IMG/VR virus record: IMGVR_UViG_3300005519_000007
Coordinates: 1 to 35,932 of that record
DNA: 35,932 bases
Reading direction: 5' to 3' (one strand)
From: a virus
The notes below the pieces were generated by a model that was given only the letters and a program-made list of their open reading frames with translations, made no database searches and had not been told where the DNA came from. The position numbers were made by a program, and so were the translations under genes. Each line of letters begins with the position of its first letter. Positions within the stretch are counted from its first letter, which is position 1. Below, one piece after another: positions 1,179 through 20,948 of this stretch.

Positions 1179-1179
1179 G

Positions 1180-3573: not shown

Positions 3574-3576
3574 TGG

Positions 3577-6760: not shown

Positions 6761-6763
6761 GGC

Positions 6764-7399: not shown

Positions 7400-7400
7400 G

Positions 7401-7754: not shown

Positions 7755-7757
7755 GAC

Positions 7758-7949
7758 TTACACCGGCGGCCAGGTGCCGGTCGCGATCGCCAGGTAGAGC
7801 TTCTCCATGGCGATCAGGGCCGTTTCCTTGTCGGTGATGTTCGACGCGTTGAACTGGACTTCCGCGTCCTTGCTCTGCGTCGACGTCGCGATGCTGGGCG
7901 GCTGGTCCACCACGCCCTGGGTGTTGTTCACCCCGATGAAGTACGCCAT
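7758..7949 (-). CDS. Hypothetical small protein in the capsid-tail interval, 63 aa
   Basis: The ATG at 7949 is preceded by AGGAGA (rc of tctcct at 7957-7962), a strong ribosome-binding site. The 63 residues begin MAYFIGVNN and contain a central amphipathic helix with the pattern DKETALIAMEKLYLAIATG. There is no membrane segment, Cys cluster or enzymatic motif. Small proteins of this size between the cement and adaptor genes are common in BPP-1-like phages. I do not recognise a function. It is co-directional and tightly packed with the genes on each side, which supports its reality. Confidence 0.6.
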   Translation of the reverse strand: MAYFIGVNNTQGVVDQPPSIATSTQSKDAEVQFNASNITDKETALIAMEKLYLAIATGTWPPV

Positions 7950-7996
7950 GTGCGTCTCCTGTTAAGGAGCGGGGGCCGAAGCCCCCGCGTGGCCGA

Positions 7997-8434
7997 TCAG
8001 GTCGGAGTGGAGAAGTACAGGTCCACGACCAGGGTGCCGGACGCCGGAAGGTTGGCGACCAGGACCTGGAGCAGGATCTGCTCTTCGGCCGTCAACGCGG
8101 TCTGCGTGATCGTCGCCGTCTTGCCGAACATCGTCGGCGTGTCCGTCGACGTGAAGACGGCCGCGGCCTTGTACTTGGCCACCGAAGCTGCCGTACCGAC
8201 CGACACCGTCGACGTGCCCAGCGACGTGTCGCTGGTGATGACGCCATAGGCGAAGGTCAGGCCGGCCGGCACGTAGGCCAGGTAGATTTCGTTGCCGGCG
8301 CCGAAGACCTGGGACGCCAGCGTGATCGTGGCGCGGTAGCGGCGCAGCCGCGCGCCGTAGCCAGACACCGCGGACGCCTTGACGACCGGGGTGCTGCCGA
8401 TGCCCGACAGTTCGTTGGAGAGAGTGGTTGCCAT
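7997..8434 (-). CDS. Probable capsid cement/decoration protein, 145 aa
   Basis: This 145-residue, nearly all-beta protein is rich in Ala, Thr, Ser and Val and has very few charged residues (MATTLSNELSG at the start, LYFSTPT at the end). It sits 12 bases downstream of the major capsid gene. In phage BPP-1, as I recall, the gene directly downstream of the major capsid protein (Bbp17) is Bbp16, a cement protein of about 140 residues with a jelly-roll fold. The size, strand-rich composition and position fit that role of locking capsomers from outside. Sequence similarity itself cannot be checked here. The start has GGAGG about eight bases upstream, consistent with high expression. Confidence 0.6.
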   Translation of the reverse strand: MATTLSNELSGIGSTPVVKASAVSGYGARLRRYRATITLASQVFGAGNEIYLAYVPAGLTFAYGVITSDTSLGTSTVSVGTAASVAKYKAAAVFTSTDTPTMFGKTATITQTALTAEEQILLQVLVANLPASGTLVVDLYFSTPT

Positions 8435-8446
8435 GCGGGCCTCCGA

Positions 8447-9349
8447 TTAGGCGCAGTTGATCTGGACGACGCGCTTTTCTTCGATGCGCGCGCCGCCGAA
8501 GGTGCCGGTCACGTAGACCTGCCACGAGTTGCGCTTGTCGGGGCGCTTGTCGACCGAAGCCGTGACGTCGTTCCACATGCCGAGCGCGACGCCCGACTTG
8601 GCCCACACCGGCACGTAGTACAGGCCGCCGGTGTTGATCGAACCCGCGTAGCTCGCGCCGCCCGGGATGCGTTCCGTGTGGACGAAGTTGAAGCCCATGA
8701 ACGAGCGGATGCGGCCTTCGACCAGGACCGGACGGTCCGTGTAGTCGAGGTTGATCGCCTGGACTTCGTTGAGCAGGTTGTCGTGCTGCGTCGCGGTGAT
8801 GCCGCAGAACAGCTGCTCGGTGTCGAGGTCGATTTCCGCGGCCATCAGCAGCTTCTTGGCGGCGCGCAGCTTGGCGACGTTCAGGCCGGTGTTGCCGGTC
8901 GAACCCACCGTGGCCGCCACGATCTGGCCCGAGGGGAACGTCACCGCGGTGGTGCCGTTCTCGCCGGTCTGGTTCGTGCCGAAGATGCCGTTGATGATCT
9001 CGTCGTCCATCGCGCGGCCCATGGCGTAGACGCCGGCCGTGGTGTACGGGCCCGCCGGGTCGATCAGCATGCGCAGGCGGTCCTGGCTGTCGATCATGTC
9101 GGCCCAGTCGTAGTCGACCGGGTAGATCCAGCGCTTGTCTTGTGGCGTGGAGATCAGCGGGGTGTCCGAGTGCCGGCCCTGGTTCTTGACCGGGGAGACG
9201 GAACCGAACTGCTCCACCATCGAAGCGGCCTTGCCGTGGAAGGCGTTCTCGGTGACACAGCCACGAAGGCGCGAGCCCTGCTGTTGCAGCAGCATCGCGA
9301 TGTTGGTGCTGTACTGCTGTACGAATGCGGCATTGACGAAATTGGACAT
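8447..9349 (-). CDS. Major capsid protein, 300 aa
   Basis: This 300-residue protein begins MSNFVNAAFVQQYSTNIAMLLQQQGSRLRG. It contains the sequence pattern found in the capsid proteins of the BPP-1/BcepC6B group: an N-terminal helical arm, a SPVKNQGRHSDTP loop (~residues 52-64), RWIYPVDYDWADMIDSQDRLRML, and a C-terminal TGTFGGARIEEKRVVQI strand. BPP-1 capsid protein adopts a variant-topology HK97 fold of similar length. It lies between scaffold-associated small genes and the cement-like gene, as expected. The start has GGAGG six bases upstream. That ribosome-binding site lies at the foot of a predicted stem-loop (9354-9427). The product would be the most abundant virion protein. Confidence 0.8.
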   Translation of the reverse strand: MSNFVNAAFVQQYSTNIAMLLQQQGSRLRGCVTENAFHGKAASMVEQFGSVSPVKNQGRHSDTPLISTPQDKRWIYPVDYDWADMIDSQDRLRMLIDPAGPYTTAGVYAMGRAMDDEIINGIFGTNQTGENGTTAVTFPSGQIVAATVGSTGNTGLNVAKLRAAKKLLMAAEIDLDTEQLFCGITATQHDNLLNEVQAINLDYTDRPVLVEGRIRSFMGFNFVHTERIPGGASYAGSINTGGLYYVPVWAKSGVALGMWNDVTASVDKRPDKRNSWQVYVTGTFGGARIEEKRVVQINCA

Positions 9350-9353
9350 GAGT

Positions 9354-9427
9354 CCTCCGGATGAGGGGTCAAAACGAAAGTCGTGGGCTAAGGCGCCACA
9401 TCTCCCGGCTTGTCCTCATCCGAGGGG
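9354..9427 (-). promoter_or_regulatory. Stem-loop in the 5' leader of the major capsid gene
   Basis: On the minus strand, CGGATGAGG pairs with CCTCATCCG across ~50 bases (arms at 9358-9366 and 9416-9424), extendable by one C-G pair and a G-T wobble. The 3' arm runs into the capsid ribosome-binding site (GGAGG) six bases before the ATG. The 109-base gap between the 67-aa gene and the capsid gene is unusually long in an operon otherwise packed with 1-12 base gaps. The structure could stabilise a processed capsid mRNA or control its translation. It has not been folded computationally. Confidence 0.45.
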
Positions 9428-9458
9428 CCAACGTCGTCGCCCACTTGGGCCGCAGGGG

Positions 9459-9662
9459 TCACGCGAAGATCGCGGGGTCCTTGTCTGCGTTCGCGGACTT
9501 GCGCTTCTTGTCCGACTGGGTCGGACTCGGTGCGCTCACGATGCGATCATAGAACCATGTTTGGATTTCCGCAACACGATTCAGGTCCTGAGAGCGCGAT
9601 TCCACCTTGACCTGCGCGATCGCGAGCTCCAGGCAGCGAAGGCGAATCTCTTCGTCGGTCAC
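9459..9662 (-). CDS. Small helical protein between scaffold and capsid genes, 67 aa
   Basis: Translation probably begins at GTG 9662, which overlaps the stop of the upstream 91-aa gene (GTGA). The protein reads VTDEEIRLRCLELAIAQVKVES and carries an amphipathic helix followed by a Lys-rich C-terminal tail (SDKKRKSANADKDPAIFA). The longer reading frame upstream to 9875 is antisense-type filler over the 91-aa gene and is not used. Phages often have a small protein with the 'E[EI]xRLxCLxLA' opening in this area, sometimes fused to head-assembly genes, but I do not recognise a defined function. It may be a minor head or DNA-binding protein given the basic tail. Confidence 0.55.
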   Translation of the reverse strand: MTDEEIRLRCLELAIAQVKVESRSQDLNRVAEIQTWFYDRIVSAPSPTQSDKKRKSANADKDPAIFA

Positions 9663-9934
9663 GTTTCCACCTTGGCCTCGGCAGCCACCGTGGTGTCGCT
9701 CGGCGCGCTCATGTCGACCGCCGGCGGGTTGGCCGGGTCGATCGGCGAGGTGGCCGTCAGATCGGCGATGTCGCGGACATAGAACGTGACGAAGCCCGTC
9801 GACGCGTCCAACTTGTCCTCGACGTAGTAGTTGGCCAGGTTGGCCAGGTTGTTGGTCCGGCGCGCCCAGTCCCACAGGTAGTTCTGCGTGATGTTGCCGA
9901 AGGTGTCGCCGCGAGCGGATTCTTGGATGGCCAT
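9659..9934 (-). CDS. Small structural-operon protein, 91 aa
   Basis: The ATG at 9934 (MAIQESARGDTFGNITQNYLWDW) lies two bases past the scaffold stop. A much longer frame reaching 10861 reads out-of-frame through the scaffold gene as Arg/Gly/Ala-rich nonsense and was rejected. The 91 residues contain a helix (LWDWARRTNNLANLANYYV), a strand-like segment (GFVTFYVRDIADL) and a Pro/Ala/Thr-rich acidic tail. No known motif is seen. It overlaps the downstream 67-aa gene by four bases, so the pair is probably translationally coupled. It may belong to head assembly, judging only from position. Confidence 0.55.
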   Translation of the reverse strand: MAIQESARGDTFGNITQNYLWDWARRTNNLANLANYYVEDKLDASTGFVTFYVRDIADLTATSPIDPANPPAVDMSAPSDTTVAAEAKVET

Positions 9935-9936
9935 AG

Positions 9937-10830
9937 TCAGCTTTCCGAGGGGTAGGCGAACGCGTGCAGCCGCGCCATCTCGGCGACGGCTTCGGCGTCC
10001 TTGTTGACGTACTTGGCGACGAACGTCTTGTCCGTGCGCAGGGATGCGATCTTGGCCTTGGCCTCGGCCGGCGTGAGCGCCGTTCCGAAGCGCGTGTCGC
10101 CCTTGCCCGAGACGAAGCCGTCTTCGGCCATGCGCGAGCCGATCTTCTGCAGCAGCTCCATCGTGCCCTTGTGCCCGAGTGCGCTGGCCAGCTTGTCGAT
10201 CGTGGCCCCGTCCATGCCGAGCCCGCGGGCGCCGGCCTGGGCGTGCGCCAGGTTCTGTGCGAACGCCTGGCCCCAGTTGGCGCGCAGCGCCTGGTCGTCG
10301 GCGGCGAATTGCTGCTGACGCTGGGCGTCGCCCGCCGTGTTCAGACCGGCCACGTGCTCGTTCCACTTGGCCGCCAGCGTCTCGCCCTGCTTCTGCGTCA
10401 GGCCCAGCTCGTGGAACCAGCCAGCCGCCTGCTTGGAGAACTCCGGGTCGCTGCCCTGGATCGCGTCGAGCTTGTAGCCCGCAGGATCGGCCGGACGACC
10501 CAGGCGGTTGAAGAACGCCGCTTGTTCCTCGGGCGTCGCGTCCGGCTTGGGGATCACCACGGCATTGCCGGCCTTGTCGGCGCCCAGCAGCTTTTCGAGG
10601 TTGCGGTAGCCCTCGAGCACCTGCTTCGGTTCGGTCCAGCCCTTGTTGGCCACGTAGCCCACGGTGATCTCGTCGGCGCCGGTCAGCCAGGCGGGGGCCG
10701 CGGGGGCCGCTGGCGCAGCAGCCGGAGCCGCGGCGGGAGCAGAAGCAGCCGGCGCGGCTGCCGGGGCGGCGGCAGGGGCCGCAGCAGGAGCGGCTGCCGG
10801 GGCGGCAGCCAGCGCTTCGGAAGTGCTCAT
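9937..10830 (-). CDS. Capsid scaffolding protein-like, 297 aa
   Basis: The protein is 297 residues, helical and acidic, with an N-terminal low-complexity tract of Ala-Ala-Ala-Pro repeats (residues ~8-46). It then has a WLTGADEITVGYVANKGWTEPKQVLEGYRNLEKLLG segment, typical of phage scaffold-like proteins encoded directly upstream of capsid genes. The rest alternates long helices (QQAAGWFHELGLTQKQGETLAAKWNEHV and similar). No protease motif is seen. Scaffold proteins form the transient inner core of the procapsid. Position between the Bbp19-like gene and the capsid gene agrees. The ATG at 10830 overlaps the upstream stop by four bases. Confidence 0.7.
   Translation of the reverse strand: MSTSEALAAAPAAAPAAAPAAAPAAAPAASAPAAAPAAAPAAPAAPAWLTGADEITVGYVANKGWTEPKQVLEGYRNLEKLLGADKAGNAVVIPKPDATPEEQAAFFNRLGRPADPAGYKLDAIQGSDPEFSKQAAGWFHELGLTQKQGETLAAKWNEHVAGLNTAGDAQRQQQFAADDQALRANWGQAFAQNLAHAQAGARGLGMDGATIDKLASALGHKGTMELLQKIGSRMAEDGFVSGKGDTRFGTALTPAEAKAKIASLRTDKTFVAKYVNKDAEAVAEMARLHAFAYPSES
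10680..10812 (-). repeat. Ala-Pro codon repeat tract at the scaffold N-terminus
   Basis: The DNA consists of imperfect tandem 12-base units encoding Ala-Ala-Ala-Pro, with GCN codons varied (gcggctgccggg, gcagcaggagcg and similar). The variation of synonymous codons suggests that the peptide rather than the DNA repeat is maintained, probably as a flexible extended linker. Such tracts are prone to length change by slippage. Confidence 0.75.
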
Positions 10831-11099
10831 TCGTCAGTCCTCGTCTTGGTAGCTGGGGCATGCATCGCCCACAGCTGTTCGTCGGTCAGGTTCAAGTGCC
10901 GCGCGATGCGCAGCCACACTTCGCGCCTGCCCTCCAGCACGGCGTGCAGCCGCGGATCGGCGTGGAACGTCGTGTCGTTGGCCCGGCAGAACCGGGCCAA
11001 GTCTTCCAGAACCTCGTCAGCCATCGGGCCGGTGAACGTCTTGACGTACGCCGTACGCCGGCGGCTGATGAAGTCGCGCGCAATCTGCAGGACGCTCAT
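10827..11099 (-). CDS. Bbp19-family phage protein, 90 aa
   Basis: The sequence MSVLQIARDFISRRRTAYVKTFTGPMADEVLEDLARFCRANDTTFHADPRLHAVLEGRREVWLRIARHLNL has the conserved core 'R..Y...F......VL.DLARFCRA..(S/T)TFHADPR..A.LEGRREVWLRI' that defines the small Bbp19 family. The family is named after Bordetella phage BPP-1 and is found between portal and capsid genes in many podoviruses and siphoviruses. Its biochemical function is unknown to me; a role in head assembly is assumed from conserved position. The protein is almost entirely helical and basic. It overlaps the genes on both sides by four bases. Its presence is one of the clearest links to BPP-1-like phages. Confidence 0.8.
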   Translation of the reverse strand: MSVLQIARDFISRRRTAYVKTFTGPMADEVLEDLARFCRANDTTFHADPRLHAVLEGRREVWLRIARHLNLTDEQLWAMHAPATKTRTDE

Positions 11100-11350
11100 G
11101 CTGCCATCTGCTTTTCAGCAGCGTTTTCCACCACAGGCGGAATGGGCTCCAACCACGATTGGGCGAAATCCGCAGCAATTCCGACCGCGCCGTACTCCGT
11201 CACCAGCGTGCAGTCGACGGCAGTGCACCGCCAGATGCGCCCCAGCTTTGAATGCTCGCCGCGAAGCGATGCAACGCGGACATGCTTGCCCACATTCAGG
11301 CCGTCGGTGCCGCCGATGACGCGGCAGAGAACACCGGCTTGTACTCTCAT
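11096..11350 (-). CDS. Small SH3-like phage protein, 84 aa
   Basis: The ATG at 11350 overlaps the portal stop (ATGA). The first ~60 residues alternate strands with the pattern GLNVGKHVRVASLRGEHSKLGRIWRCTAVD, resembling the small SH3/KOW-like beta-barrels seen near portal genes of related phages. No Cys cluster is complete, although two Cys flank the central strand. The C-terminus is a short acidic tail. It ends in a four-base overlap with the Bbp19-like gene. Role unknown; a head-completion or nucleic-acid contact role is possible but unsupported. Confidence 0.55.
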   Translation of the reverse strand: MRVQAGVLCRVIGGTDGLNVGKHVRVASLRGEHSKLGRIWRCTAVDCTLVTEYGAVGIAADFAQSWLEPIPPVVENAAEKQMAA

Positions 11351-13032
11351 GCGGCTGCCGGCTGTCCGGCGTTCGGGTTGGTGCCTTGCGGGCTGGTCGC
11401 CTTGGCCATGGCCGCCATGCCGGGCAGCGCCTGCGTGACCTGGGCGGCTTGCTTGTCCTGCTCGCGCCCTTGGCGCTTCATGGCAACCGTGGCCGGATCG
11501 GCGATGAAGCGGAACGGCACGCCGTTGATGTCGGCCAGCTCAGGGATCAACGTGTCCCAGTCGAACCAGTCCATCGGGGACGGGTCCTGCGTCTGGCTCA
11601 CGATCTCGGACGCCCACTGCACGGAGCGCATCGTGCCGGCGGCTTCCTCGGCGCGCATCATGCGGTTCAGCGGTGCGTCGTACTCCACCTTGTACTGGCC
11701 GCCGGCCTCGAGCACGGACCGCGGCGGCGGCGGGACGAGGCCCTGGTACAGCAGCAGGTCCACCTCGCGCTCGATCATCGGGCCCAGTCCTTCGGACTGG
11801 TGCCGGCCCATCGTCGGCGACAGCAGCGCACCCTTCTCGCGTGCGCGCTCCAGGACTTCGGTGGCCGTCATCTGCGGCGTGTCGATCAGGATCTGGAACA
11901 GCGTGACCAGGAACGCGTCGTTGATGGCCATGCGCTCGTCGTCCATCAGGTCCTTGCCGACCGCCACGTTGCCCACCGGCAGCGTGTGGACGAGCGGACG
12001 ACCGTCCGCGTTGACGGCACCGTAGTTCGTCGCGCCAGGCTTCAGGCTCAGGCCGTCCATGATGCCGTCGTCGTGCGCCAGCAGCACCGGGTCCACCGTG
12101 CGGTGGCCCTGCTTCAGGACGATCTTCTTCTGCTCGTTCAGGACGTTGATGCCGGCCAGCACGTTCATGGCCGGCCCACGGCCGTACGTCTCGCCCGGCG
12201 CCACTAGGTAGCGCGGCACGCTGTAGGGCATGCAGCGGTAGCCACCCTCGCCCAGCAGCGTCTTGGTGTCGCGCAGGATGTAGTGGCTCGAGAACCGCTT
12301 GGACTTCCATGACAGCGTCAGCGTCGGATCGAACTCGGCGTTCGGCTGCACCATGTGGATGACCGTCACCTCGTCCTCGGGGTTCACCTCAAGGCGGCTG
12401 CGCAGGTTCTCGGGCAGCTTGCCCGGCCACTTCTGGTTGATCTGGCGCAGCGTCATCTTGAAGCGGCGCGCCACCTTGTCGACCTGGCCCTGGTGGTTGG
12501 TGGCGAAGAACAACTCGCCCAGGAACACCTGCTTGTAGCGCAAGCCCTTGGCCCACGGCTGGGTCGGATCGCGAAACTCGTCGGTGAACAGGCACGAGGT
12601 GCCGAACGCGCCGACCGAGACGTAGCCGTCGTGGGTCTGCGACTGGAAGCCCGAATGCGGGCTGTAGCGGTAGCGGAACAGCGCGTCGTTCAGCTGGTCG
12701 TACCACAGGCGCGCCGCGCGGTCCTTCATCAGCGCGTCCTCGGTGGGACGCATGCGATGCCACTTGCCGTTGGCCGGCGTGATCATCGACTCCATGGCGG
12801 CCGCGAACTTCCACAGCGCCGAGTTGGCCGTGACGTCGAACTGCGCCTGGCTGCGCTTCTGGCCGGGGACCACGTTGCCGCGGCTGTAGAAGCTCGTGGA
12901 GTAGTACGGCAGCACCTTCAGCGCCACCTCTTCCCAGTGCTTCTCCCAAATGCCGCGCTTGCCCTCCATGATCTCGAAATCACGAAGGATGTCGCTGACC
13001 ACCTCGGCGTCGCGGTCGCGCGGGTCGGCCAC
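11347..13032 (-). CDS. Portal (head-to-tail connector) protein, 561 aa
   Basis: This 561-residue protein shows the podovirus portal pattern. It has an N-terminal helical segment (RDAEVVSDILRDFEIMEGKRGIWEKHWEEVALKVLP), a DVTANSALWKFAAAMESMITPANGKWHRM segment (~residues 66-94), and the conserved APGETYGRGPAMNVLAGINVLNEQKK block (~residues 280-305). A QMTATEVLERAREKGALLSPTMGRHQSEGLGPMIERE helix-rich stretch follows (~residues 390-425). This matches the head-to-tail connecting protein family (T7 gp8 type), which forms the dodecameric portal at one vertex, the docking site for terminase and later for the tail. Ala/Gln-rich C-terminal residues may form the barrel or a disordered tail. It starts directly after the stop of the 102-aa gene. 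Confidence 0.88.
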   Translation of the reverse strand: MADPRDRDAEVVSDILRDFEIMEGKRGIWEKHWEEVALKVLPYYSTSFYSRGNVVPGQKRSQAQFDVTANSALWKFAAAMESMITPANGKWHRMRPTEDALMKDRAARLWYDQLNDALFRYRYSPHSGFQSQTHDGYVSVGAFGTSCLFTDEFRDPTQPWAKGLRYKQVFLGELFFATNHQGQVDKVARRFKMTLRQINQKWPGKLPENLRSRLEVNPEDEVTVIHMVQPNAEFDPTLTLSWKSKRFSSHYILRDTKTLLGEGGYRCMPYSVPRYLVAPGETYGRGPAMNVLAGINVLNEQKKIVLKQGHRTVDPVLLAHDDGIMDGLSLKPGATNYGAVNADGRPLVHTLPVGNVAVGKDLMDDERMAINDAFLVTLFQILIDTPQMTATEVLERAREKGALLSPTMGRHQSEGLGPMIEREVDLLLYQGLVPPPPRSVLEAGGQYKVEYDAPLNRMMRAEEAAGTMRSVQWASEIVSQTQDPSPMDWFDWDTLIPELADINGVPFRFIADPATVAMKRQGREQDKQAAQVTQALPGMAAMAKATSPQGTNPNAGQPAAA

Positions 13033-13341
13033 CTAGCCCCCCAGCAACGTCTTGGACGTCGTGCCCATGTTGCTCAGGCCGGCACCGCCGGTCAGCATCG
13101 TGGCGGTCAGTCCGCGCTGCAGCCCCATCTGTTGCTGCTGGGCGGCCACGTCGAGCGCGTCCTGGCTGTTGCTCACGGTCGGGGCGGGCGCGACCATCGC
13201 CGGCGTCAGCGTCTTCTTGGCGAACAGCGTCCCCTGCTCCGGGTGCGTCAGCGACCGCAGGCCCGGCCCCATGAGCGCGCCTTGCCACGTCAGCCCGGGG
13301 CTGGTGAACGTCTTGTTGAGCATGCCGACCATGGAACTCAT
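13033..13341 (-). CDS. Small hypothetical protein, first gene of the portal-capsid operon, 102 aa
   Basis: The frame runs from ATG 13341 to a TAG that immediately abuts the portal start. The protein is Leu/Met/Thr/Gly-rich with a central Val/Pro/Gln-rich region and a C-terminal Gly/Thr-rich stretch (GLTATMLTGGAGLSNMGTTSKTLLGG). No motif is recognised. The start codon lies only about three bases downstream of the predicted transcription start of a well-matched promoter (-35 TTGACG, 17-bp spacer, -10 GATAAT). The mRNA would then be leaderless or nearly so, with no Shine-Dalgarno sequence. Internal ATGs (residues 4 and 7) also lack one. It may be a small virion or assembly protein. Confidence 0.5.
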   Translation of the reverse strand: MSSMVGMLNKTFTSPGLTWQGALMGPGLRSLTHPEQGTLFAKKTLTPAMVAPAPTVSNSQDALDVAAQQQQMGLQRGLTATMLTGGAGLSNMGTTSKTLLGG

Positions 13342-13344
13342 AGT

Positions 13345-13379
13345 GGTGCGATTATCGCAACGCGCAAGGCAAACGTCAA
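13345..13379 (-). promoter_or_regulatory. Sigma70-like promoter with operator palindrome, drives portal-capsid genes
   Basis: On the minus strand TTGACG (13374-13379) and GATAAT (13351-13356) are separated by exactly 17 bases. The -10 hexamer sits inside a 17-bp near-palindrome (13345-13361), the copy here being GGTGCGATTATCGCAAC on the plus strand. The same palindrome recurs at 15621, 15986, 18457 and 25211. A repressor bound here would occlude the -10 element and silence the structural genes in the lysogen. The promoter lies between the terL stop and the 102-aa gene. Confidence 0.7.
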
Positions 13380-13383
13380 CGCA

Positions 13384-14943
13384 TCAGCCAAAGAAGTCGT
13401 AGTCGACGTCTTTGGCTCTCGAATTGCGCGTCATGTTCTGCCGTGAAGTCCCGGTGTCGTTGCGTGCGATCGTCTTGGCGAACGTCAGCGCCAGCGCCTC
13501 GGCCGAGTCAGGCGAGGCCAGGCCGCGCTTTTCCCGCATGTGCTCCTTGGACTCGAGGACGATCTTGTTGTCGGACGGGGTGTAGCTGTACTCGGGTCCG
13601 GTCAGGTCCGACAGCAGCTCCGCGTCGTTGGGCAGGCTGCCGATCGTCAGCCAATCGCGCATCAGGCCCCACATCTCGGCGCGCTTGTTGACGTAGGTGT
13701 TGGCGTCGTTGGGGCTGCCGCCGGCCTGCACCTCGATGACCTGGAACCGCCACGCCTTGAGGTTGTCCACCACGCCACCGCCCACGCCGTTGCCGTCCAC
13801 GAAGATCGCGTCGACCTTGTGCTTGTTGGCGAGCTCGGCGACAAGGGTGGCCAACTGCACCGTGTCGAACCCGCGCCGGCGCTGCCACGGGATGCACTTG
13901 GCGTCGCGCCCCTTGCGAAACGCGATCACCGACTGGTCCTTGCCGAAGCGCGCCACGTCCACCCCCATGACCAACGGCGCCCCGGGATCGGGGATCACGT
14001 CACGCTGCTGGGCATCCAGGACGGCCGAGGACCCGATGAACTGGTTGTCGGCCCGGTTGGGGAACTGGCCGTACACCTCGATCCGGGCCTCGTCCGAGTC
14101 GGCGCCGTGCTTCTTGATGATCGAGTCGTAGGCGTCCTTGACGATGCCCTCCACCAGGCGGCCGTCGATCTGCCGACGCAGCCACGAGTCCCGGTCGGCA
14201 TGGAAGCATTCGAAGAACGCCCCGTCGTTGCGCCGCGGGTTGCTGAACGCCAGCCAGTAGCGGTCCACGATGTCCTCGGTGAACACGCCCTGGGCCACGG
14301 TCCAGATCGGCTTGGGAATGCCCGACGCCTCGTCGAACAGGTACATCTCGCCGTAGCCATTGTGGGCACCGGCGAAGGCATCGGGGTTTTCTTCCGACCA
14401 GAGCTGGGCCTGGATGTACCAGTACTTCGGGTCGATCTTCATGTCCCGCTGCACGAGCTCGGCCAGCCACTTGGCCGGCACGATCGACGTGGCGTTGATG
14501 TCGAACCAGTGGGCGTTGATGCTGAGGGACACCCACTTCGAGATCTCGGGGAACGTCTTGGTCTTGAGCTGCGGTTCACCGTTGGCCGTGACCCACACGG
14601 AGCCCCCGAGCCTGGTGGAGGCCAACCAGTGCGCGATCCAGGAGAACAGCGCCGACTTGCCGATGCCGCGGCCCGATGCGACGGCCTCCCGGAACATGGG
14701 CGGCAGGACGTTGTGGATGATGCGGTGGTCCCGTGCCCGCTTGATGTAGGCCGCCAAGTCGCCCAGGACGTCGTCCTGCCACTTGCGGGGGCCCTTGATG
14801 TGCTCGAGCGGCGTGCCAGCCTCGCCCCAGGGGTAGACCATCCGGACGAAGTCCCGCGGATCGTCAGCGATGTCCGGGTTCCAGATGTCGGCCATCAGCT
14901 GCTGCTCGGATGCAGCGTCGTACTTGGTCGTGGAGCCTGCCAT
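13384..14943 (-). CDS. terL: Terminase large subunit (ATPase-nuclease), 519 aa
   Basis: The motor that packages DNA into procapsids. The ATPase Walker A-type loop is SGRGIGKSALF (~residues 90-100), and the Walker B strand with catalytic Glu is MYLFDEAS (~200-207). A SNPRRNDGAFFECF coupling segment follows (~234-247). The RNase H-like nuclease domain shows GVDVARFGKD (first Asp, ~327-336), AIFVDGNGVGGGVVD (~379-393) and a late ASPDSAEALALTFA (~476-489) supplying the third acidic residue. Both domains and all key residues are present, and 519 aa is normal for the family. The start ATG 14943 has GAGGA seven bases upstream. A 148-base gap separates it from terS, and the downstream operon has its own promoter. 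Confidence 0.92.
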   Translation of the reverse strand: MAGSTTKYDAASEQQLMADIWNPDIADDPRDFVRMVYPWGEAGTPLEHIKGPRKWQDDVLGDLAAYIKRARDHRIIHNVLPPMFREAVASGRGIGKSALFSWIAHWLASTRLGGSVWVTANGEPQLKTKTFPEISKWVSLSINAHWFDINATSIVPAKWLAELVQRDMKIDPKYWYIQAQLWSEENPDAFAGAHNGYGEMYLFDEASGIPKPIWTVAQGVFTEDIVDRYWLAFSNPRRNDGAFFECFHADRDSWLRRQIDGRLVEGIVKDAYDSIIKKHGADSDEARIEVYGQFPNRADNQFIGSSAVLDAQQRDVIPDPGAPLVMGVDVARFGKDQSVIAFRKGRDAKCIPWQRRRGFDTVQLATLVAELANKHKVDAIFVDGNGVGGGVVDNLKAWRFQVIEVQAGGSPNDANTYVNKRAEMWGLMRDWLTIGSLPNDAELLSDLTGPEYSYTPSDNKIVLESKEHMREKRGLASPDSAEALALTFAKTIARNDTGTSRQNMTRNSRAKDVDYDFFG

Positions 14944-15091
14944 TTACGGTCCTCGTAAAGAGGTGCGGATCACCTCAAAAATAAAATTCAGGCCGCCCGA
15001 TGGGACCCGGGGGCTCAGCGCCGGCGGGATTCTTGGGGGTACCCCCACCCGCACCCGGCCCTCCGGCCAAATAGGGGACCCGTCCTGGCTG
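14944..15091. other. terS-terL gap with 14-bp palindrome and G-tract cluster
   Basis: In an operon otherwise packed with tiny gaps, this 148-base gap carries a perfect palindrome TGGGGGTACCCCCA (15034-15047). On the minus strand four runs of three or more G lie within 20 bases (complement of C-runs at 15042-15061), fitting the G-quadruplex pattern G3N2G3N3G3N1G5. A smaller inverted repeat, AGGTGATCCGCACCT, precedes the terL ribosome-binding site. Terminase recognition (cos or pac) sites commonly lie in or beside terS, so this is a candidate packaging or processing site. No experimental or comparative support is available here. Confidence 0.35.
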
Positions 15092-15631
15092 TCAGCTGAA
15101 GATGTCCGGCTCGAGCGGGTCGACATCGCCTGGCTTTTCAACGGGCACGGATTCAATATCCGCGGGCCCGATCAGCTGCACCGAGGGAGATTCGACCAAT
15201 TGGGCGTCCGACACGTCCAACTGGTCGCTTACTGGACGACGGATGCGCGAGAGATAGGCCGATCGGGCATCGTTGATGCTGATCGTCTGCTGCACATTCA
15301 GATCGATCCGCTCGCCGAACTTCTTCGGGTTGGCCTTGGCGGCGTTCCACTGCCGCGCCTGAATGCGGTTGCGCGCTCGCGACGCATCCTGATCGGTGTC
15401 GGCGATCTCGATCATCTCGTCTGCCCAAATCTCGGCGCGAATTTCCATCGCGCGAGCGAAGCGATGAGCCGGTTCTCGCAGTCTGGACAGGTCGTCGTAC
15501 AGGCTCTTCACGCTGCCGTAGGCGCCCACGATCGCCTGCCTGATCGGCATGCCACTCAGAACACGCTCGATCACCAGGTCAATCCGCGCCTCATCGGTCG
15601 GACTACGGGTTTCCCCTAATGTTGCGTTCAT
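15092..15631 (-). CDS. terS: Terminase small subunit, 179 aa
   Basis: The protein begins with a helix-turn-helix-like DNA-binding region (residues ~15-50: IDLVIERVLSGMPIRQAIVGAYGSVKSLYDDLSR). It continues with the conserved helical oligomerisation core of Sf6-type small terminases (~58-115), containing 'AEIWADEMIEIAD' and 'ARNRIQARQWNAAKANPKKFGERIDL'. The C-terminal ~55 residues are acidic and Pro-rich, probably the tail that contacts TerL. TerS recognises phage DNA to start packaging. The assigned ATG at 15631 lies inside the operator palindrome at 15621-15637 that serves the divergent promoter. No later Met suits the family core, so this start was kept. No convincing minus-strand promoter was found. 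Confidence 0.8.
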   Translation of the reverse strand: MNATLGETRSPTDEARIDLVIERVLSGMPIRQAIVGAYGSVKSLYDDLSRLREPAHRFARAMEIRAEIWADEMIEIADTDQDASRARNRIQARQWNAAKANPKKFGERIDLNVQQTISINDARSAYLSRIRRPVSDQLDVSDAQLVESPSVQLIGPADIESVPVEKPGDVDPLEPDIFS

Positions 15632-15650
15632 CGTAACACGCTGCTATAGT
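15621..15650 (+). promoter_or_regulatory. Rightward promoter with overlapping operator, small-ORF cluster
   Basis: TTGCGT (15622-15627) and TATAGT (15645-15650) are separated by 17 bases. The -35 element lies within the 17-bp palindrome copy GTTGCGTTCATCGTAAC (15621-15637), and the spacer ends in GCTGC. The arrangement is the same as in the promoter at 25211, including the shared GCTGCTAT at the -10 border. It should drive the small ORFs from 15697 onward and be controlled by the same regulator. Confidence 0.7.
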
Positions 15651-15696
15651 CGCACCATGCCTTGATTGTGAGGCACTGAACGAAAGCGAGCAAATC

Positions 15697-15873
15697 ATGA
15701 ACAACCAACAGCAATTGATCGCCTGGATCAACACCCACGATTGCGGCGTGCAACCGTGCGCCATCGTGCGTGACGGCGAGGTCGTGATCCGTGTGGCGAT
15801 CGCCCACAGCGACGAGTGCGAAGAGCACGTCGTGAGCACCTACAGCGAAGCTCGCAACGCGCTGGGGTACTGA
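15697..15873 (+). CDS. Small phage protein, 58 aa
   Basis: First ORF after the rightward promoter, about 45 bases from its -10 element. The 58 residues (MNNQQQLIAWINTHDCG... to ...SEARNALGY) form a compact, acidic alpha/beta protein. It has three Cys and a strand-rich centre (CAIVRDGEVVIRVAIA), and probably no membrane segment. The ORF is real by promoter, spacing and continuity with the next ORF, which starts two bases after its stop. It is too small to assign. Early or lysogenic genes of this size often modulate host functions, but that is only context. Confidence 0.55.
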   Translation: MNNQQQLIAWINTHDCGVQPCAIVRDGEVVIRVAIAHSDECEEHVVSTYSEARNALGY

Positions 15874-15874
15874 G

Positions 15875-16012
15875 ATGAGAAGCGAATACGCCGCCAACCT
15901 GGCTCTGCAAAGCCAGCCTCAGCGGCAACAAATCAACAGGCAGCCTGTGCGTCAACAACCGCACAGGTCTTTTTTCGGCTTCATCGTTGCGATGATCGCA
16001 TCGGCGTTATAG
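15875..16012 (+). CDS. Small membrane-anchored ORF, 45 aa
   Basis: ATG 15875 follows the previous stop by one base. The protein is MRSEYAANLALQSQPQ..., a Gln/Arg-rich N-terminus of about 30 residues, followed by a C-terminal hydrophobic stretch (FFGFIVAMIASAL) that could be a short tail anchor. An operator-like palindrome (15986-16002) lies inside its last codons, so part of the hydrophobic segment may reflect DNA constraint. There is a weak purine-rich sequence upstream of the start. Function unknown, and it may be a fortuitous ORF, though it fills the gap exactly between its neighbours. Confidence 0.4.
   Translation: MRSEYAANLALQSQPQRQQINRQPVRQQPHRSFFGFIVAMIASAL
15986..16002. promoter_or_regulatory. 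Fifth operator-like palindrome copy
   Basis: GTTGCGATGATCGCATC differs from the 17-bp consensus GTTGCGATTATCGCAAC at the central base and one outer base. A -10-like TTATAG follows at 16007-16012 but the spacing from TTGCGA is about 15, shorter than at the other copies. It lies 20 bases upstream of the DUF7249-like gene, and could be an auxiliary operator or a second start for that gene. Confidence 0.45.
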
Positions 16013-16021
16013 GGGAACAAC

Positions 16022-16633
16022 ATGGCAACCACTGGATACAACGGCTGGACGAACTACGAAACGTGGGTCGTGAAGCTCTGGCTGGACAACGACGGCACGG
16101 ATCTCGAGGAAATGGCGCGCGAGTGCCTGCGAGATGCGATCGACAAGGACCAAGGCAAGGATGACGCGACGATCTGCCTGCGTGACCAGCTCGAGGCGTA
16201 CGTCGACGAGCTGCAGGAAATCGGCAACCTGCCGACCACTGGCATGTTCGCGGACCTGCTGGGCCACGCGCTGGGCATGGTCGATTGGCGCGAGATCGCC
16301 GACAACGTGATGGGTGACGTGCCCGTCTACGTCGCTGGCGTGAACATGCCGGGCTACATGCCCGACAACACGCCGGCGGCGTTCCTCGATGCTGACGACG
16401 CGCGCAACTACATCGCAAGCGAGATGCGGATGCGTGCCGAGTCGTTCGAGGACCGCACCGATCCCGAGTGCCTGTCCGATGCCTGCCTGGCCGGCGACTA
16501 CTCGATCCCCGATGGCAATGCGCAAAACCTGCGTGATGCCGCGGATCACCTGGACACGCTGTCGACCGAGGGAGGCGCCGCGGAATTCGGCATCACCCTG
16601 GCGGGCACGCACTACTTCATCCACGTGGAGTGA
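16022..16633 (+). CDS. DUF7249-like phage protein, 203 aa
   Basis: The opening GYNGWTNYETWVVKLWLDN is a motif I recognise from a widespread family of phage proteins with a 'YNGW(T/S)N(Y/R)ETW.V.LW' N-terminus, whose function is unknown. The protein is acidic, with about ten Cys/Met-rich positions and several helices (EMARECLRDAIDKDQG, LRDQLEAYVDELQEIG), and ends in a beta-like GITLAGTHYFIHVE. There is an AGGGGA ribosome-binding site eight bases before ATG 16022. It is cotranscribed with the small ORFs around it. Proteins of this family tend to sit in the accessory early region, which fits here. Confidence 0.65.
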   Translation: MATTGYNGWTNYETWVVKLWLDNDGTDLEEMARECLRDAIDKDQGKDDATICLRDQLEAYVDELQEIGNLPTTGMFADLLGHALGMVDWREIADNVMGDVPVYVAGVNMPGYMPDNTPAAFLDADDARNYIASEMRMRAESFEDRTDPECLSDACLAGDYSIPDGNAQNLRDAADHLDTLSTEGGAAEFGITLAGTHYFIHVE

Positions 16634-16638
16634 TCGCC

Positions 16639-16761
16639 GTGTCCATCTATTTCCTGTCCCGCCTTGACGCGCAGCTGTGCCTGCTGGCCCTGCTGCGTGC
16701 TCACCGAGTCGCCCACATGAAGACCGTGGACGGCATGTTCGAAGTCATCACAGAGGAGTGA
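16639..16761 (+). CDS. Small ORF, 40 aa, GTG start
   Basis: From GTG 16639, five bases after the DUF7249-like stop, the frame encodes VSIYFLSRLDAQLCLLALLRAHRVAHMK followed by DGMFEVITEE. The first 20 residues are hydrophobic enough for a peripheral helix. No motif is present. Support comes from close packing: it ends three bases before the next ATG. Its acidic end codons include GAGGAG, which supplies the ribosome-binding site for the following lipoprotein-like ORF. Confidence 0.4.
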   Translation: MSIYFLSRLDAQLCLLALLRAHRVAHMKTVDGMFEVITEE

Positions 16762-16764
16762 CCC

Positions 16765-16902
16765 ATGCGCACCATCCTGTTCATCATGCTGGCGGCGTTG
16801 ATCTGCGCGCTGCTGCAAGCCTGCGACGGCGACATCGCATCTCCTTTCGACAAGCCCGACGAGTCGACCCAGCCCGTCACGCAAGGGGAGACGTCCAAGT
16901 GA
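16765..16902 (+). CDS. Small lipoprotein-like ORF, 45 aa
   Basis: ATG 16765 with AGAGGAG upstream encodes MRTILFIMLAALICALLQAC. It then continues with a short acidic, Pro/Thr-rich tail (DGDIASPFDKPDESTQPVTQGETSK). The N-terminus has a single Arg, a hydrophobic core and an LQAC box ending in Cys20, which fits a lipoprotein signal although Gln at -2 is unusual. A mature peptide of ~26 residues resembles very small outer-membrane lipoproteins. It could be a lysogeny-expressed envelope peptide. It is not beside lysis genes, so a spanin role is unlikely. Confidence 0.5.
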   Translation: MRTILFIMLAALICALLQACDGDIASPFDKPDESTQPVTQGETSK

Positions 16903-16982
16903 AGCACACCTACACCATCCTGGCCATCGCGCGGCGCCATCCGGCTCTGTTCGCCTGGCTGCTGACTCGCAAGGGAGCCTGA
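16899..16982 (+). CDS. Very small ORF, 27 aa
   Basis: GTG 16899 overlaps the lipoprotein-like stop by four bases (GTGA) and encodes VKHTYTILAIARRHPALFAWLLTRKGA. It consists of a hydrophobic helix bracketed by basic residues, compatible with a membrane-interacting peptide. The stop is three bases before the next ATG, and its last codons carry AAGGGAG, a ribosome-binding site for the next gene. It may therefore simply be a translational coupler. Reality is supported only by packing. Confidence 0.35.
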   Translation: MKHTYTILAIARRHPALFAWLLTRKGA

Positions 16983-16985
16983 GCC

Positions 16986-17213
16986 ATGGCTGCACGCCGC
17001 TACTACGCTGTTCGGGCCTACGGGTTCCCGGGCCATCCGTTCCCGTCACGCTTCTACGATGCCGAGCCCACTTTGGCCCACGCGCGCCGGACGGCGTCGA
17101 ACCTTGTGCGAGATGGCTGGCGCTGTGCCGACATCCTGCGCGAGCTGCCGCGGCCGCCAGGCCACGAGATCGGCGCGCACTGGGAGCCGGTTGAAACCCT
17201 AGGCGTCGCATGA
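16986..17213 (+). CDS. Small phage protein, 75 aa
   Basis: ATG 16986 has AAGGGAG about eight bases upstream. The 75 residues (MAARRYYAVRAYGFPGHPFPSRFYDAEPTLAHARRTASNLVRDGWRCADILREL...) form a basic alpha/beta protein with a YAVRAYGF strand and a helix. It has no Zn-binding or membrane pattern. It is the last ORF of the small-gene cluster and is followed by two rho-independent-type terminators. I do not recognise the family. Confidence 0.55.
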   Translation: MAARRYYAVRAYGFPGHPFPSRFYDAEPTLAHARRTASNLVRDGWRCADILRELPRPPGHEIGAHWEPVETLGVA

Positions 17214-17264
17214 CACACCACCGACCAAAGCCCTTCATCCCCTAGACCCCAGCCCCAGCCACTG

Positions 17265-17288
17265 AGCCGCCCACGAGGCGGCTTCTTC
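17265..17288 (+). terminator. Rho-independent-type terminator after small-ORF cluster
   Basis: AGCCGCC (17265-17271) pairs with GGCGGCT (17277-17283) over a five-base loop and is followed by TCTTC. It lies 50 bases downstream of the 75-aa gene. The T-run is interrupted, so it may be only partly efficient; a second terminator follows 46 bases on. Confidence 0.55.
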
Positions 17289-17333
17289 ATAGGTAAACGG
17301 GTAAACGACCGTCAAAAGGGGTGGCAAATTTTC

Positions 17334-17371
17334 ATAGGTAGCACACCCCTTCTACCTATTTTTCTTGTTTT
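17334..17371 (+). terminator. Second plus-strand terminator
   Basis: ATAGGTAG (17334-17341) pairs perfectly with CTACCTAT (17352-17359) around a ten-base loop, and TTTTCTTGTTTT follows. An eight-base stem with a long U-rich tail is a good intrinsic terminator, though the stem is AT-rich. Together with the hairpin at 17265 it insulates the small-ORF cluster from the region facing the repressor. Confidence 0.6.
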
Positions 17372-17610
17372 AAATAAGAAAACATACATATGAGAACCTG
17401 AGCACTTGTAACCGCACAGCCCATGGCAATTATTTTCCACAGCGCACCACACACCACACCCACGTTTCCCCAGCGGACTGACTTCAAATCGTGGGGGGAA
17501 AGGGGTGGATGAACAAAAACCTAGGATCCATGCGGGTTAGCGGCCCGCTACCCCTTCCCACAAACGATCCAGGAAAGGGTGAAACGAACAGCCCTGTTGC
17601 ACCAAAGCAA

Positions 17611-17635
17611 CGAAAAAGGCGGCCGAAGCCGCCTT
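17611..17635 (-). terminator. Terminator of the repressor transcript
   Basis: Read on the minus strand, AAGGCGGC and GCCGCCTT (arms at 17628-17635 and 17616-17623) enclose a TTCG tetraloop and run straight into five T residues (complement of 17613-17617). A GC-rich stem, UUCG-type loop and U-run make a textbook terminator. It lies 76 bases beyond the repressor stop. Confidence 0.8.
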
Positions 17636-17659
17636 GGAAATCCCCAAAAATCCCCGCCA

Positions 17660-17699
17660 GTTACACCTCGAAATATCCTAGGTTTCGCTAAAGTGTAAC
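17660..17699. repeat. Nested inverted repeat beside the repressor stop
   Basis: GTTACAC (17660-17666) and GTGTAAC (17693-17699) are perfect complements. Between them, CGAAA (17669-17673) pairs with TTTCG (17683-17687). The nested arrangement lies 11 bases outside the repressor stop codon. It could be an RNA stem in the repressor 3' end or a protein-binding site; no T-run follows. Confidence 0.4.
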
Positions 17700-17710
17700 A
17701 ATTCCGGAAA

Positions 17711-18304
17711 TTACTGCCTCAGCCAAATCGCTGGCGAGGCATTTTCCAGACGTCCGTAGTCCTCGGATCCGTCCAGCTTGACCATCCGGTAGTAGCCTTC
17801 GTCGTAGCCGCGATGCACCCAGCAGACGTACTCGTGGTCTGACTTCTCTGGCCTGACGACGCACAGGCGCCCCGTGATGTCGCTGGCCACGCGGTGGTTG
17901 TCCCGGAAGTACACCAGCCACCCATCGAACTGGCCGCCGTTGGACAGCACGCGGATGGCGCGCACGTCGTCATCGTTGTCGGCCGGCGCAACCACCGTCT
18001 TGGGTCCAGGCGCATTGCCGCGGACCACTTCACCCTTCGCATCAGCGATCCCGATCACTTTCACCATCGAGCCCGTGGGCGATCCAGCTGCCTCGATGCC
18101 CGCATGCCTGGCCACTTCATTGAGTGGTTGGTTCAGCACGCGCGCCGTGGCTGCCAGCTCCTCTGCCCGCCAGCCACGCTGACCACTCAGCATGAGCGAG
18201 ACGGCCGAGCGATCAAGCTCGAGCGCCTTGGCTAGGCCAGCCTGGTTCATCTGGCGTTCCTCAAGGCGTGCGAGGAACCACTGCTTGTTCACGGTTGCAT
18301 TCAT
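17711..18304 (-). CDS. cI-like transcriptional repressor, 197 aa
   Basis: The N-terminal ~65 residues form an XRE-type helix-turn-helix (QMNQAGLAKALELDRSAVSLMLSGQRGW, ~residues 18-45) typical of phage repressors. After a linker, the C-terminal ~95 residues (DGWLVYFRDNHRVASDITGRLCVVRPEKSDHEYVCWVHRGYDEGYYRMVKLDG) resemble the beta-rich S24/LexA-like dimerisation domain. However, the catalytic Ser motif (G-S-M) and autoproteolytic Ala/Cys-Gly site are not visible, so induction by self-cleavage is doubtful. It is transcribed away from the Cro-like gene at 18482 across a ~180-bp control region and ends before a strong terminator. It is the expected controller of the 17-bp operator set. The leader has no obvious Shine-Dalgarno. 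Confidence 0.8.
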   Translation of the reverse strand: MNATVNKQWFLARLEERQMNQAGLAKALELDRSAVSLMLSGQRGWRAEELAATARVLNQPLNEVARHAGIEAAGSPTGSMVKVIGIADAKGEVVRGNAPGPKTVVAPADNDDDVRAIRVLSNGGQFDGWLVYFRDNHRVASDITGRLCVVRPEKSDHEYVCWVHRGYDEGYYRMVKLDGSEDYGRLENASPAIWLRQ

Positions 18305-19559: not shown

Positions 19560-19581
19560 CCCCCACCCCAGGAGACAACGA
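19556..19581 (+). repeat. 26-bp direct repeat, copy 1 (stop codon plus RBS linker)
   Basis: The 26 bases from CTAACCCCCACCCCAGG through GAGACAACGA recur without mismatch at 20923-20948. Each copy contains the TAA of the upstream frame and an AGGAGA ribosome-binding site. Copy 1 precedes the 62-aa ORF, and copy 2 precedes the DPPY methyltransferase gene. The pair brackets the variable-protein genes and the DGR remnant (1.37 kb). Confidence 0.9.
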
Positions 19582-19769: not shown

Positions 19770-19816
19770 CCCTGCTTCCCAGCAACAACGTCTTCCCAAC
19801 GCCTGAAAGGCAATCC

Positions 19817-20221
19817 ATGACCACCAAGACCGAAATCAAGCCCCTCGCGCTCGCGGCCGTTGCCGCACTGGCGCTTGGCGCGCCGCTCGAGGGCGGCACG
19901 TTCCAAGGCATCCTGACGCTGCCCAGCGGCGTGCATGTCGTCGTCGTGCTGCTGGCCGACAAGCCCGGCAAGGAGCTGAACTGGGCCGACGCGATGAAGT
20001 GGGCCGAGAGCGTCGACGGCGAGCTGCCGGCGCGCCCGGCCGCGGCCATGCTCTTCGCGAACGCGAAGGATCAGTTCGAGAAGGACTGGCACTGGACGTC
20101 CGAGGCCTACAGCGGCTCGTACGCCTGGGTGCAGCACTTCAGCAACGGCGACCAGGACGGGGGCAACGTCAACCGCAAGACCTGCGCTCGGGCCGTCCGC
20201 ATGATTCCTTTGGTCCTTTGA
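19817..20221 (+). CDS. DGR variable protein 1, DUF1566/C-type-lectin-like, 134 aa
   Basis: The 134-residue protein has a beta-rich start (TFQGILTLPSGVHVVVVLLAD, ~residues 37-57) and a helix (NWADAMKWAESVDGELPARPAAAML). It closes with WTSEAYSGSYAWVQHFSNG...CARAVR. The pattern 'ELP.R.....LFANAK..F....(Y/H)W(T/S)(S/N)EA...AW.Q.F..G.Q' with terminal RAVR is that of DUF1566/C-type-lectin-fold ligand-binding domains used as DGR targets. The N-terminal Ala/Leu run superficially resembles a signal peptide but aligns with a plain strand in its paralogue. Residues ~99-128 come from a 90-bp variable repeat. The role, host-surface or ligand display, is inferred from the family. No fibre fusion is present, so it may act in the lysogen or as an add-on subunit. 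Confidence 0.75.
   Translation: MTTKTEIKPLALAAVAALALGAPLEGGTFQGILTLPSGVHVVVVLLADKPGKELNWADAMKWAESVDGELPARPAAAMLFANAKDQFEKDWHWTSEAYSGSYAWVQHFSNGDQDGGNVNRKTCARAVRMIPLVL
20111..20200 (+). repeat. DGR variable repeat VR1
   Basis: This 90-bp segment aligns without gaps to 20591-20680. It differs at 22 bases in 15 of 30 codons, and none of the differences is at a third codon position. Every variable codon ends in C or G as an AAC or AAG template codon would. The last 18 bases, TGCGCTCGGGCCGTCCGC, lack adenine and are invariant, as expected of an initiation-of-mutagenic-homing (IMH) element. Upstream of the segment the paralogues differ at many third positions. Confidence 0.85.
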
Positions 20222-20245
20222 TCCTTTCGAAGGAGCCAACGCATC

Positions 20246-20695
20246 ATGACCACGATCACCCTTGAGGATCTCAAGTCCGACCAGGTGCGCCTGGCCGAGA
20301 AGATCGCCGCCTTCGAACGCGCGCGGCCGCGCGTCATCACCGTGGCCGCGGCATCGATCTCGCTGGCCGAAGGCGAGACCTACGCCGGCCTGATCCTGAA
20401 CGACGACGGAACGCCGGCGCACCACCTGGTGCTCCTGCCCGGCGAAACCGAGGCGAACTGGGCCGACGCCAAGACGTGGGCGGCCAAGGCCGGCGGCGAG
20501 CTGCCGACGCGGCGCGAGCAGTCGCTGCTGTTCGCCAATGCCAAGGCCGGCTTCCAGGCGCGCTACTACTGGTCGAACGAAGCGCACGAGAACGGCTCGG
20601 GCGCCTGGATGCAGACCTTCGACTACGGCAACCAGTGCTGGAACGACGTCGACTACGAGTGCTGCGCTCGGGCCGTCCGCAGAGTTTCCGCTTGA
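20246..20695 (+). CDS. DGR variable protein 2, DUF1566/C-type-lectin-like, 149 aa
   Basis: This paralogue of the preceding protein has an N-terminal helix (MTTITLEDLKSDQVRLAEKIAAFE). It is followed by ETYAGLILNDDGTPAHHLVLLPGE, NWADAKTWAAKAGGELPTRREQSLLFANAKAGF, and YYWSNEAHENGSGAWMQTFDYG...CCARAVR. The 'GELPTRREQ.LLFANA...YYWS.E' signature is the DUF1566/C-type-lectin type. Residues ~116-145 derive from VR2, where 15 codons differ from paralogue 1. The Cys and Trp in the variable loop are unusual for a folded loop but compatible with random A-directed substitution. Spacing after gene 1 is 24 bases with AAGGAG as ribosome-binding site. It likely shares ligand-binding architecture but distinct specificity. 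Confidence 0.8.
   Translation: MTTITLEDLKSDQVRLAEKIAAFERARPRVITVAAASISLAEGETYAGLILNDDGTPAHHLVLLPGETEANWADAKTWAAKAGGELPTRREQSLLFANAKAGFQARYYWSNEAHENGSGAWMQTFDYGNQCWNDVDYECCARAVRRVSA
20591..20680 (+). repeat. DGR variable repeat VR2
   Basis: Second copy of the 90-bp variable segment. It contains NNC codons such as GAC, TAC, AAC, TGC and TGC at positions that read AGC, AAC, GAC, GAC and ACC in VR1. The invariant codons are Gly, Ser, Ala, Trp, Gln, Phe and the closing Cys-Ala-Arg-Ala-Val-Arg. The 19-base block TGCGCTCGGGCCGTCCGCA is shared exactly with VR1, and I noticed no third copy (template repeat) in the window. Confidence 0.85.
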
Positions 20696-20723
20696 TCCTT
20701 CAATCCTTTTGAGGAACTGAGCC

Positions 20724-20776
20724 ATGGCCCTCCACCATGACTTGCCGATCTACCGCACTGGCACTCAGCTGCTGAC
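20724..20776 (+). pseudogene. avd: 5' fragment of an avd-like gene (DGR accessory protein)
   Basis: ATG 20724, with GAGGAA nine bases upstream, encodes MALHHDLPIYRTGTQLLT, the N-terminal signature of proteobacterial four-helix-bundle Avd-like proteins ('MALHxDLPIYK..Y.LL'). These bind DGR reverse transcriptase and the template RNA. After about 17 residues the frame leaves the family and degrades into Thr/Ala/Ser-rich sequence, ending at 20888. In an adjacent frame the sequence continues as a reverse transcriptase C-terminus. The four-helix body is therefore missing. The junction lies near 20765-20785. Identification is from memory of the motif and should be confirmed by search. Confidence 0.65.
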
Positions 20777-20926
20777 GGCCTGCACCAGGTCGTCAACAGC
20801 TACTTCGGCCTGTTGCGCCAGGCCAGCCACAGCCATGCCGATCGAGTCCGGCTCGCCAACGTCGCGCGCCGACGGGGCCACTGCGTGAACGGCCAACTCA
20901 CCAAGACGTTTCAAAAGGCCGTCTAA
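20777..20926 (+). pseudogene. 3' fragment of a DGR-type reverse transcriptase
   Basis: In the frame ending at TAA 20924-20926 the sequence reads GLHQVVNSYFGLLRQASHSHADRVRLANVARRRGHCVNGQLTKTFQKAV. The '(V/I)NSY(F/L)GLLRQA.(S/T)H..R' thumb-end motif and the closing 'LTKTF' are what I associate with the C-termini of bacterial DGR (and group II-like) reverse transcriptases. All catalytic domains, including the YxDD box, are absent. There is no start codon, and the fragment is fused out of frame to the avd-like start. Gene order DGR target - avd - (TR) - RT is conserved in known DGRs, so an internal deletion explains the fusion. Confidence 0.6.
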
Positions 20927-20948
20927 CCCCCACCCCAGGAGACAACGA
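20923..20948 (+). repeat. 26-bp direct repeat, copy 2
   Basis: Identical to 19556-19581. Here it starts one base before the TAA of the reverse-transcriptase remnant and supplies the AGGAGA ribosome-binding site for the methyltransferase gene at 20950. Recombination between the copies would remove the variable-protein block cleanly. Confidence 0.9.

Follow-up and report, generated by a model that had tools for sequence, protein, structure and literature searches.

We find that the window, i.e. the whole stretch of 35,932 nucleotides analyzed here (IMG/VR record IMGVR_UViG_3300005519_000007, positions 1 to 35,932), very probably carries the relic of a two-target DGR of a tailed phage, in which the core has been deleted and the targets kept, and that such loss is recurrent in relatives. 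Among the features of a complete DGR, the window has adenine-confined variable regions (VRs), an adenine-poor, IMH-like end and a C-type-lectin-like target fold; a template repeat (TR), a DGR-type RT (YxDD, GxxxSQ) and a complete Avd are absent.

The two target genes, VP1 (19817..20221, plus strand; 134 aa) and VP2 (20246..20695, plus strand; 149 aa), each contain one VR in frame: VR1 (20111..20200, plus strand) lies inside VP1 and VR2 (20591..20680, plus strand) corresponds to residues 116–145 of VP2. The first-pass annotation had described these segments as aligning without gaps over 90 bases, with 22 differences spread over 15 codons and none at third codon positions, and our recount gives the same figures and exact coordinates. 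The last 18 bases of both VRs (20183..20200 and 20663..20680, both plus strand) are the same sequence (TGCGCTCGGGCCGTCCGC), which contains no adenine, resembles an IMH and is also found at the end of the TR in the related locus L004. Third positions do vary freely upstream, as had been proposed. Specifically, over 60 aligned codons located 5' of the VR (codon-aware alignment), the paralogues show 21, 21, and 24 differences at codon positions 1, 2, and 3, i.e. 24 of 60 third positions differ. Synonymous codon use follows the same line, with 12 of 29 identical amino acids encoded by different codons upstream, compared with 0 of 15 inside the VR.

The annotation had also predicted that a matching template would be found in related genomes. 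A pattern scan of IMG/VR returns a third match in contig 3300005563_000035 (the related record L010/L004), located outside any target gene and directly 5' of an RT frame (...GGCTCGAACGCCTGGATGCAGAACTTCAACAACGGCAACCAGGACTGGAACAACGTCAACAACAAGAACTGCGCTCGGGCCGTCCGC). This TR matches each window VR at 60 of 61 non-adenine positions, and the single non-adenine change in each VR calls for a slightly different ancestral template. Using the L004 TR as reference, 21 VR1/VR2 differences are testable (those outside the first VR codon), and 19 of them sit on its 26 adenines (hypergeometric p=1.6e-11). The claim that all differences are consistent with template adenines thus holds for these 19 and fails for VR positions 45 and 48, which are G and T in the L004 and L005 templates. 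Both are adenine in the L006 template, so, on the evidence of these three relatives, it is the template itself that drifts at these exceptions. The same base preference is seen across 71 related cassettes, where TR and VR differ at 45% of adenines (1957/4325) and at 0.8% of other bases (75/9115). On sequence grounds, the substitution signature and the 19 of 21 testable differences on a relative's template adenines identify VR1 and VR2 as genuine DGR variable regions.

VP1 and VP2 are paralogues and hypervariable lectin loops are common, and one could therefore ask whether the pattern arose with no DGR involved, through ordinary divergence, gene conversion or positive selection acting on such a loop. 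We regard this origin as hardly conceivable: the 15 identical residues show 0 synonymous differences beside saturated nonsynonymous changes, the next relative has a TR plus an RT, and the adenine specificity is seen across 71 cassettes. With the template found in relatives, a non-DGR origin of the VR pattern is already refuted.

The proposed DUF1566/C-type-lectin-like nature of the targets is borne out by structure prediction. VP1, a small C-type-lectin-like protein (Lcl_C, formerly DUF1566), has a sub-threshold match to Pfam Lcl_C (E=8e-4), a match to the C-terminus of phrog_4245 and a score of 160 bits with the family HMM. The VP2 model (AlphaFold2, pLDDT 95.4) has an N-terminal helix (residues 6–26) and a C-type lectin fold, and its top PDB match in Foldseek is 8q4e_A, the Legionella Lcl C-terminal domain (E=2e-5), with numerous C-type lectins ranking below it, in agreement with the weak Pfam match. 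In this model, VR2 spans strands 119–124, 130–134, and 139–141 plus their loops. The target genes adjoin a RuvC-like resolvase and replication genes, outside the structural block. Podovirus-like structural genes occupy window positions 1–18304 on the minus strand, and the major head protein is ~40–47% identical to those of Pelagibacter HTVC-type and Manatee Spring phages. A 26-nt intergenic leader (..CCCCCACCCCAGGAGACAACGA) has identical copies at window 19561–19581 and 20928–20948, each before a gene.

Searches with the target protein retrieve more than 80 viral and 7 bacterial loci, typically arranged as target, target, Avd, TR, and RT. Most of the bacterial hosts that are named belong to the Burkholderiales, and prophages of Curvibacter lanceolatus and Undibacterium rivi (L093/L094) are examples with an intact cassette. 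RTs of intact relatives carry the motifs LPIGNLSSQ and YVDD, and their Avd is of the bAvd type (PF22296, E=1.6e-8, slightly under the curated cut-off). The closest cassette, IMGVR_UViG_3300005563_000035 (L004/L010/L011), has avd, TR, and RT intact and is 95% identical in DNA to window 19794–20777, i.e. over VP1, VP2 and the start of avd. The rest of the L004 phage backbone is unrelated to the window (blastn), and the RT stub of the window is closest to a third phage, L005. Together, the near-identical cassette in an unrelated backbone and the different affinity of the stub indicate that cassettes appear to move and recombine between phages. One intact-looking cassette, L067:11332-12406, has an extra gene of ~280 codons between TR and RT and the largest VP–RT gap.

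Directly 3' of VR2 and VP2, the start of avd is joined to the end of the RT gene. The avd remnant (20724..20777, plus strand; MALHHDLPIYRTGTQLLT) comprises the first 18 codons (Avd HMM positions 1–24), matches the intact L004 cassette at 95% DNA identity as far as 20777 and then runs out of frame. The RT remnant (20771..20926, plus strand; NSYFGLLRQ..., NSYFGLLRQASHSH...) comprises the last ~50 codons without an in-frame ATG, covers RT HMM positions 307–358 of 361 (70 bits) and shares 90% DNA identity with the intact L005 RT over 100 nt. The junction is a 7-nt microhomology, GCTGACG (20771..20777, plus strand), with 6 of its 7 bases also present at the L005 RT end. In blastn alignments with L005, window 20777 pairs with 10527 and window 20771 with 12033, and 1512 nt are missing in the window. 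This comparison shows a deletion of ~1.5 kb that took away the remainder of avd, the TR, and the catalytic RT. The avd remnant loses its frame and the RT remnant contains no ATG, so the core is dead. Differences between the RT remnant and L005 over the first 39 codons number 4, 5, and 12 by codon position, a pattern that still looks like that of coding sequence; this, along with the intact sister cassette of L004, indicates that the core was probably lost recently. The leader copy at 20928–20948 precedes the gene right after the RT scar, and a similar stretch is found 3' of the L004 cassette.

Searches of both window strands for a TR give a best non-VR match at 37 of 60 informative positions, which is noise, and the window has no RT match to the RVT_1 profile. 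Over 33,448 bp the window is 100% identical to a second IMG/VR record, 3300002741_000034 (L003), which has different ends, and the two together span about 44.4 kb; the rest of this union also has no TR or RVT_1 match. The window record is linear and may lack an end, and the two records may come from one sample, in which case they are weak replicates of the deletion. With no TR and only stubs of avd and the RT left, the window preserves in its VR signature a record of past mutagenesis.

Could the avd–RT junction have arisen during assembly or amplification, or belong to a minor variant of a phage whose dominant form keeps its core? VR and TR are nearly repeats of each other, the assembly of DGR loci can go wrong, and the exact junction is known from one clonal phage only. 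However, the 7 bases of the join do not suffice for a k-mer overlap, the fusion is not part of the VR/TR repeat and is present in two records with different ends, and other core losses are found in independent records, all of which make an artefact very improbable.

Under the reading that we prefer, a relic with a deleted core, we infer from the known DGR pathway that mutagenic retrohoming took place in the window phage in the past. The DGR RT would have made cDNA from TR RNA, with errors at the template adenines, and this cDNA would have been inserted into VR1 and VR2. A deletion of ~1.5 kb between short repeats in the avd 5' end and the RT gene 3' end then removed the TR, every catalytic motif of the RT, and the bulk of avd, with both target genes staying intact. 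The VR1 and VR2 targets would now be frozen in cis, unless another element acts in trans. Such action, in which RT, Avd, and TR RNA come from the intact cassette of a co-infecting phage or resident prophage and the deleted phage is a satellite user of another's mutator, is in our view unlikely. It would fit the match of each window VR to the 18-nt end and to 60 of 61 non-adenine L004 TR positions, the absence of accumulated third-position drift between VR1 and VR2, and the fact that intact cassettes are common in related phages. Yet a recent deletion explains clean VRs equally well, the VRs of the window and of L003 are identical over the entire overlap, and an intact helper is not seen in the record.

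The deletion of a DGR core with retention of its targets is not confined to the window. Approximately one in eight target-anchored cassettes with enough flank has a broken core (~9–10 of 71–72), and two further searches with the RT C-terminus added more broken loci, so that target and RT C-terminus searches together give about 160 intact and 20 broken cassettes. These counts exclude loci cut by contig ends (L037, L040, L064, L070–L072, L087, L088, and others), and contig ends are therefore rejected as the cause of the missing RTs. L042 may never have had a cassette, and L022 and L048 are weak cases with possibly chimaeric ends. In a VP tree, the broken cassettes are scattered: 14 broken rows represent 14 changes, at least 8 of which are forced by well-supported branches, the exact number being uncertain as the tree rests on a short alignment of the non-variable part of VP2. 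As judged from this target phylogeny, core loss is shown to recur independently in related phages.

The broken loci take several forms. For example, the avd start is fused to the RT from codon ~145 in L059, avd is cut at residue 46 in L083, and L063 keeps its TR with an RT cut at residue 64. In L255 (2671-5114), transposase-like (ISL3-like by eye) and methyltransferase-like genes split the RT at about codon 320, and an HNH gene lies immediately 5' of this RT. Many breakpoints fall at RT codons ~258–312, a range to be read with the blindness of the C-terminal search to breaks further downstream, and we do not claim clustering at a strictly site-specific break at the RT NSYFG codons. Over the full length of most broken records, RVT_1 finds no match. 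Four loci keep one, which is the long stub itself in G013 and G024 and a separate RT in G018 and G012. The RT of G018 (the record of L130) is a second, separate one at 37271-37714, within a frame of 568 codons, and it possibly represents another RT class or a helper; in this record an HNH gene has taken the place of the DGR core. Longer DUF1566-like targets with a VR-like C-terminus lie beside broken RT cores at L115:3182-4039, L150:3492-4142, and L181:3753-4325.

HNH-type genes are strongly associated with core loss. Of about 20 broken cassettes, 11 have such a gene in the core interval (L007, L028, L043, L075, L115, L127, L130, L150, L213, L237, and L255), against none of the 162 distinct intact RT loci (Fisher p about 1e-12, with the roughly 20 broken cases counted by hand). 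The gene sits either between the final target and what is left of the RT or at the expected core position. The HNH profiles were built from broken loci and could miss other endonucleases; elsewhere in the locus, HNH genes are found in 9 of the 162 intact RT loci. Three groups can be distinguished, i.e. HNH_3, NUMOD4 plus HNH_3, and a third (L007, L075, and L150) that has no Pfam hit and is AP2/HNH phage endonuclease-like by eye. The association is thus shown at the level of sequences, and suggests HNH genes as a putative cause of the loss, or as later occupants of the gap.

The way the HNH genes join the RT remnant follows a pattern of the intact cassettes. In L028, L127, L150, and L237, the RT stub begins with an in-frame ATG that shares bases with the HNH stop codon (ATGA); in L130 the two codons overlap as TGATG. 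A stop–start overlap is found at the RT stop codon in 138 of 202 intact RTs, and the RT 3' end is therefore most likely retained because translation of the next gene is coupled to it. We considered the stub as an independent functional protein and rejected it, coupling being simpler given these 138 RTs. In the window, the gene after the RT stub has its own ribosome-site-like AGGAG and no stop–start overlap.

A stronger proposal, possible though doubtful, is that HNH (homing-type) genes drive core removal by cutting intact RT genes and copying themselves in. An HNH allele replacing avd–TR–RT would then spread, and selfish endonucleases would switch off hypermutation with the targets left in place. 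Translational coupling of the following gene to the RT stop codon would account for the retained RT 3' end, and the plain deletion of the window would represent either the endpoint of this process or a separate path alongside it.

DGRs, multiple VRs, and truncated RTs are already known. The accessible part of the DiGReF paper reports six clearly truncated RTs, and its authors speculate that targets may be fixed once well adapted, so that loss is selected (PMC3521204). In the window family, loss may be selected in this way or may simply be tolerated. DiGReF starts from RTs, as described there, and cassettes without an RT are invisible to it; neither recurrent excision nor HNH replacement is found in that part of the paper (PMC3521204). 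In the open-access literature searched for DGRs with homing/HNH endonucleases or a lost RT, as far as its accessible text extends, recurrent core excision and HNH replacement are likewise undescribed, and recurrent core excision with the targets kept therefore appears to be undescribed.

As DGR surveys begin with the RT, RT-less cassettes escape them. A target-anchored search uncovers loci where the core is lost and yet the targets and the adenine-directed signature persist. Intact and frozen cassettes in sister phages offer a matched comparison, one that bears on the old question of why a mutator is kept and what follows once the best binder has been found, and the repeated presence of HNH genes at the site of loss suggests a concrete, testable agent.

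DGRs of the Bordetella phage BPP-1 type share with the window an adenine-directed VR, an adenine-free end, and a C-type-lectin-like target. The BPP-1 type has a single large tail-tip target, Mtd, whereas the window has two small targets (134 and 149 aa) beside replication genes and no mutator. A closer counterpart is Burkholderia phage Magia (MT701587; L016), in which a potential DGR has already been annotated (PMC7883833). Magia is described as a myophage and its cassette is complete, whereas the window is podovirus-like and retains no TR, no catalytic RT, and only the start of avd. Like the window family, Magia has a lectin-fold target, a second target, an Avd-like four-helix protein and an RT in the same order; its VP2 is 52% identical to that of the window, and its VR–TR differences are confined to adenines.
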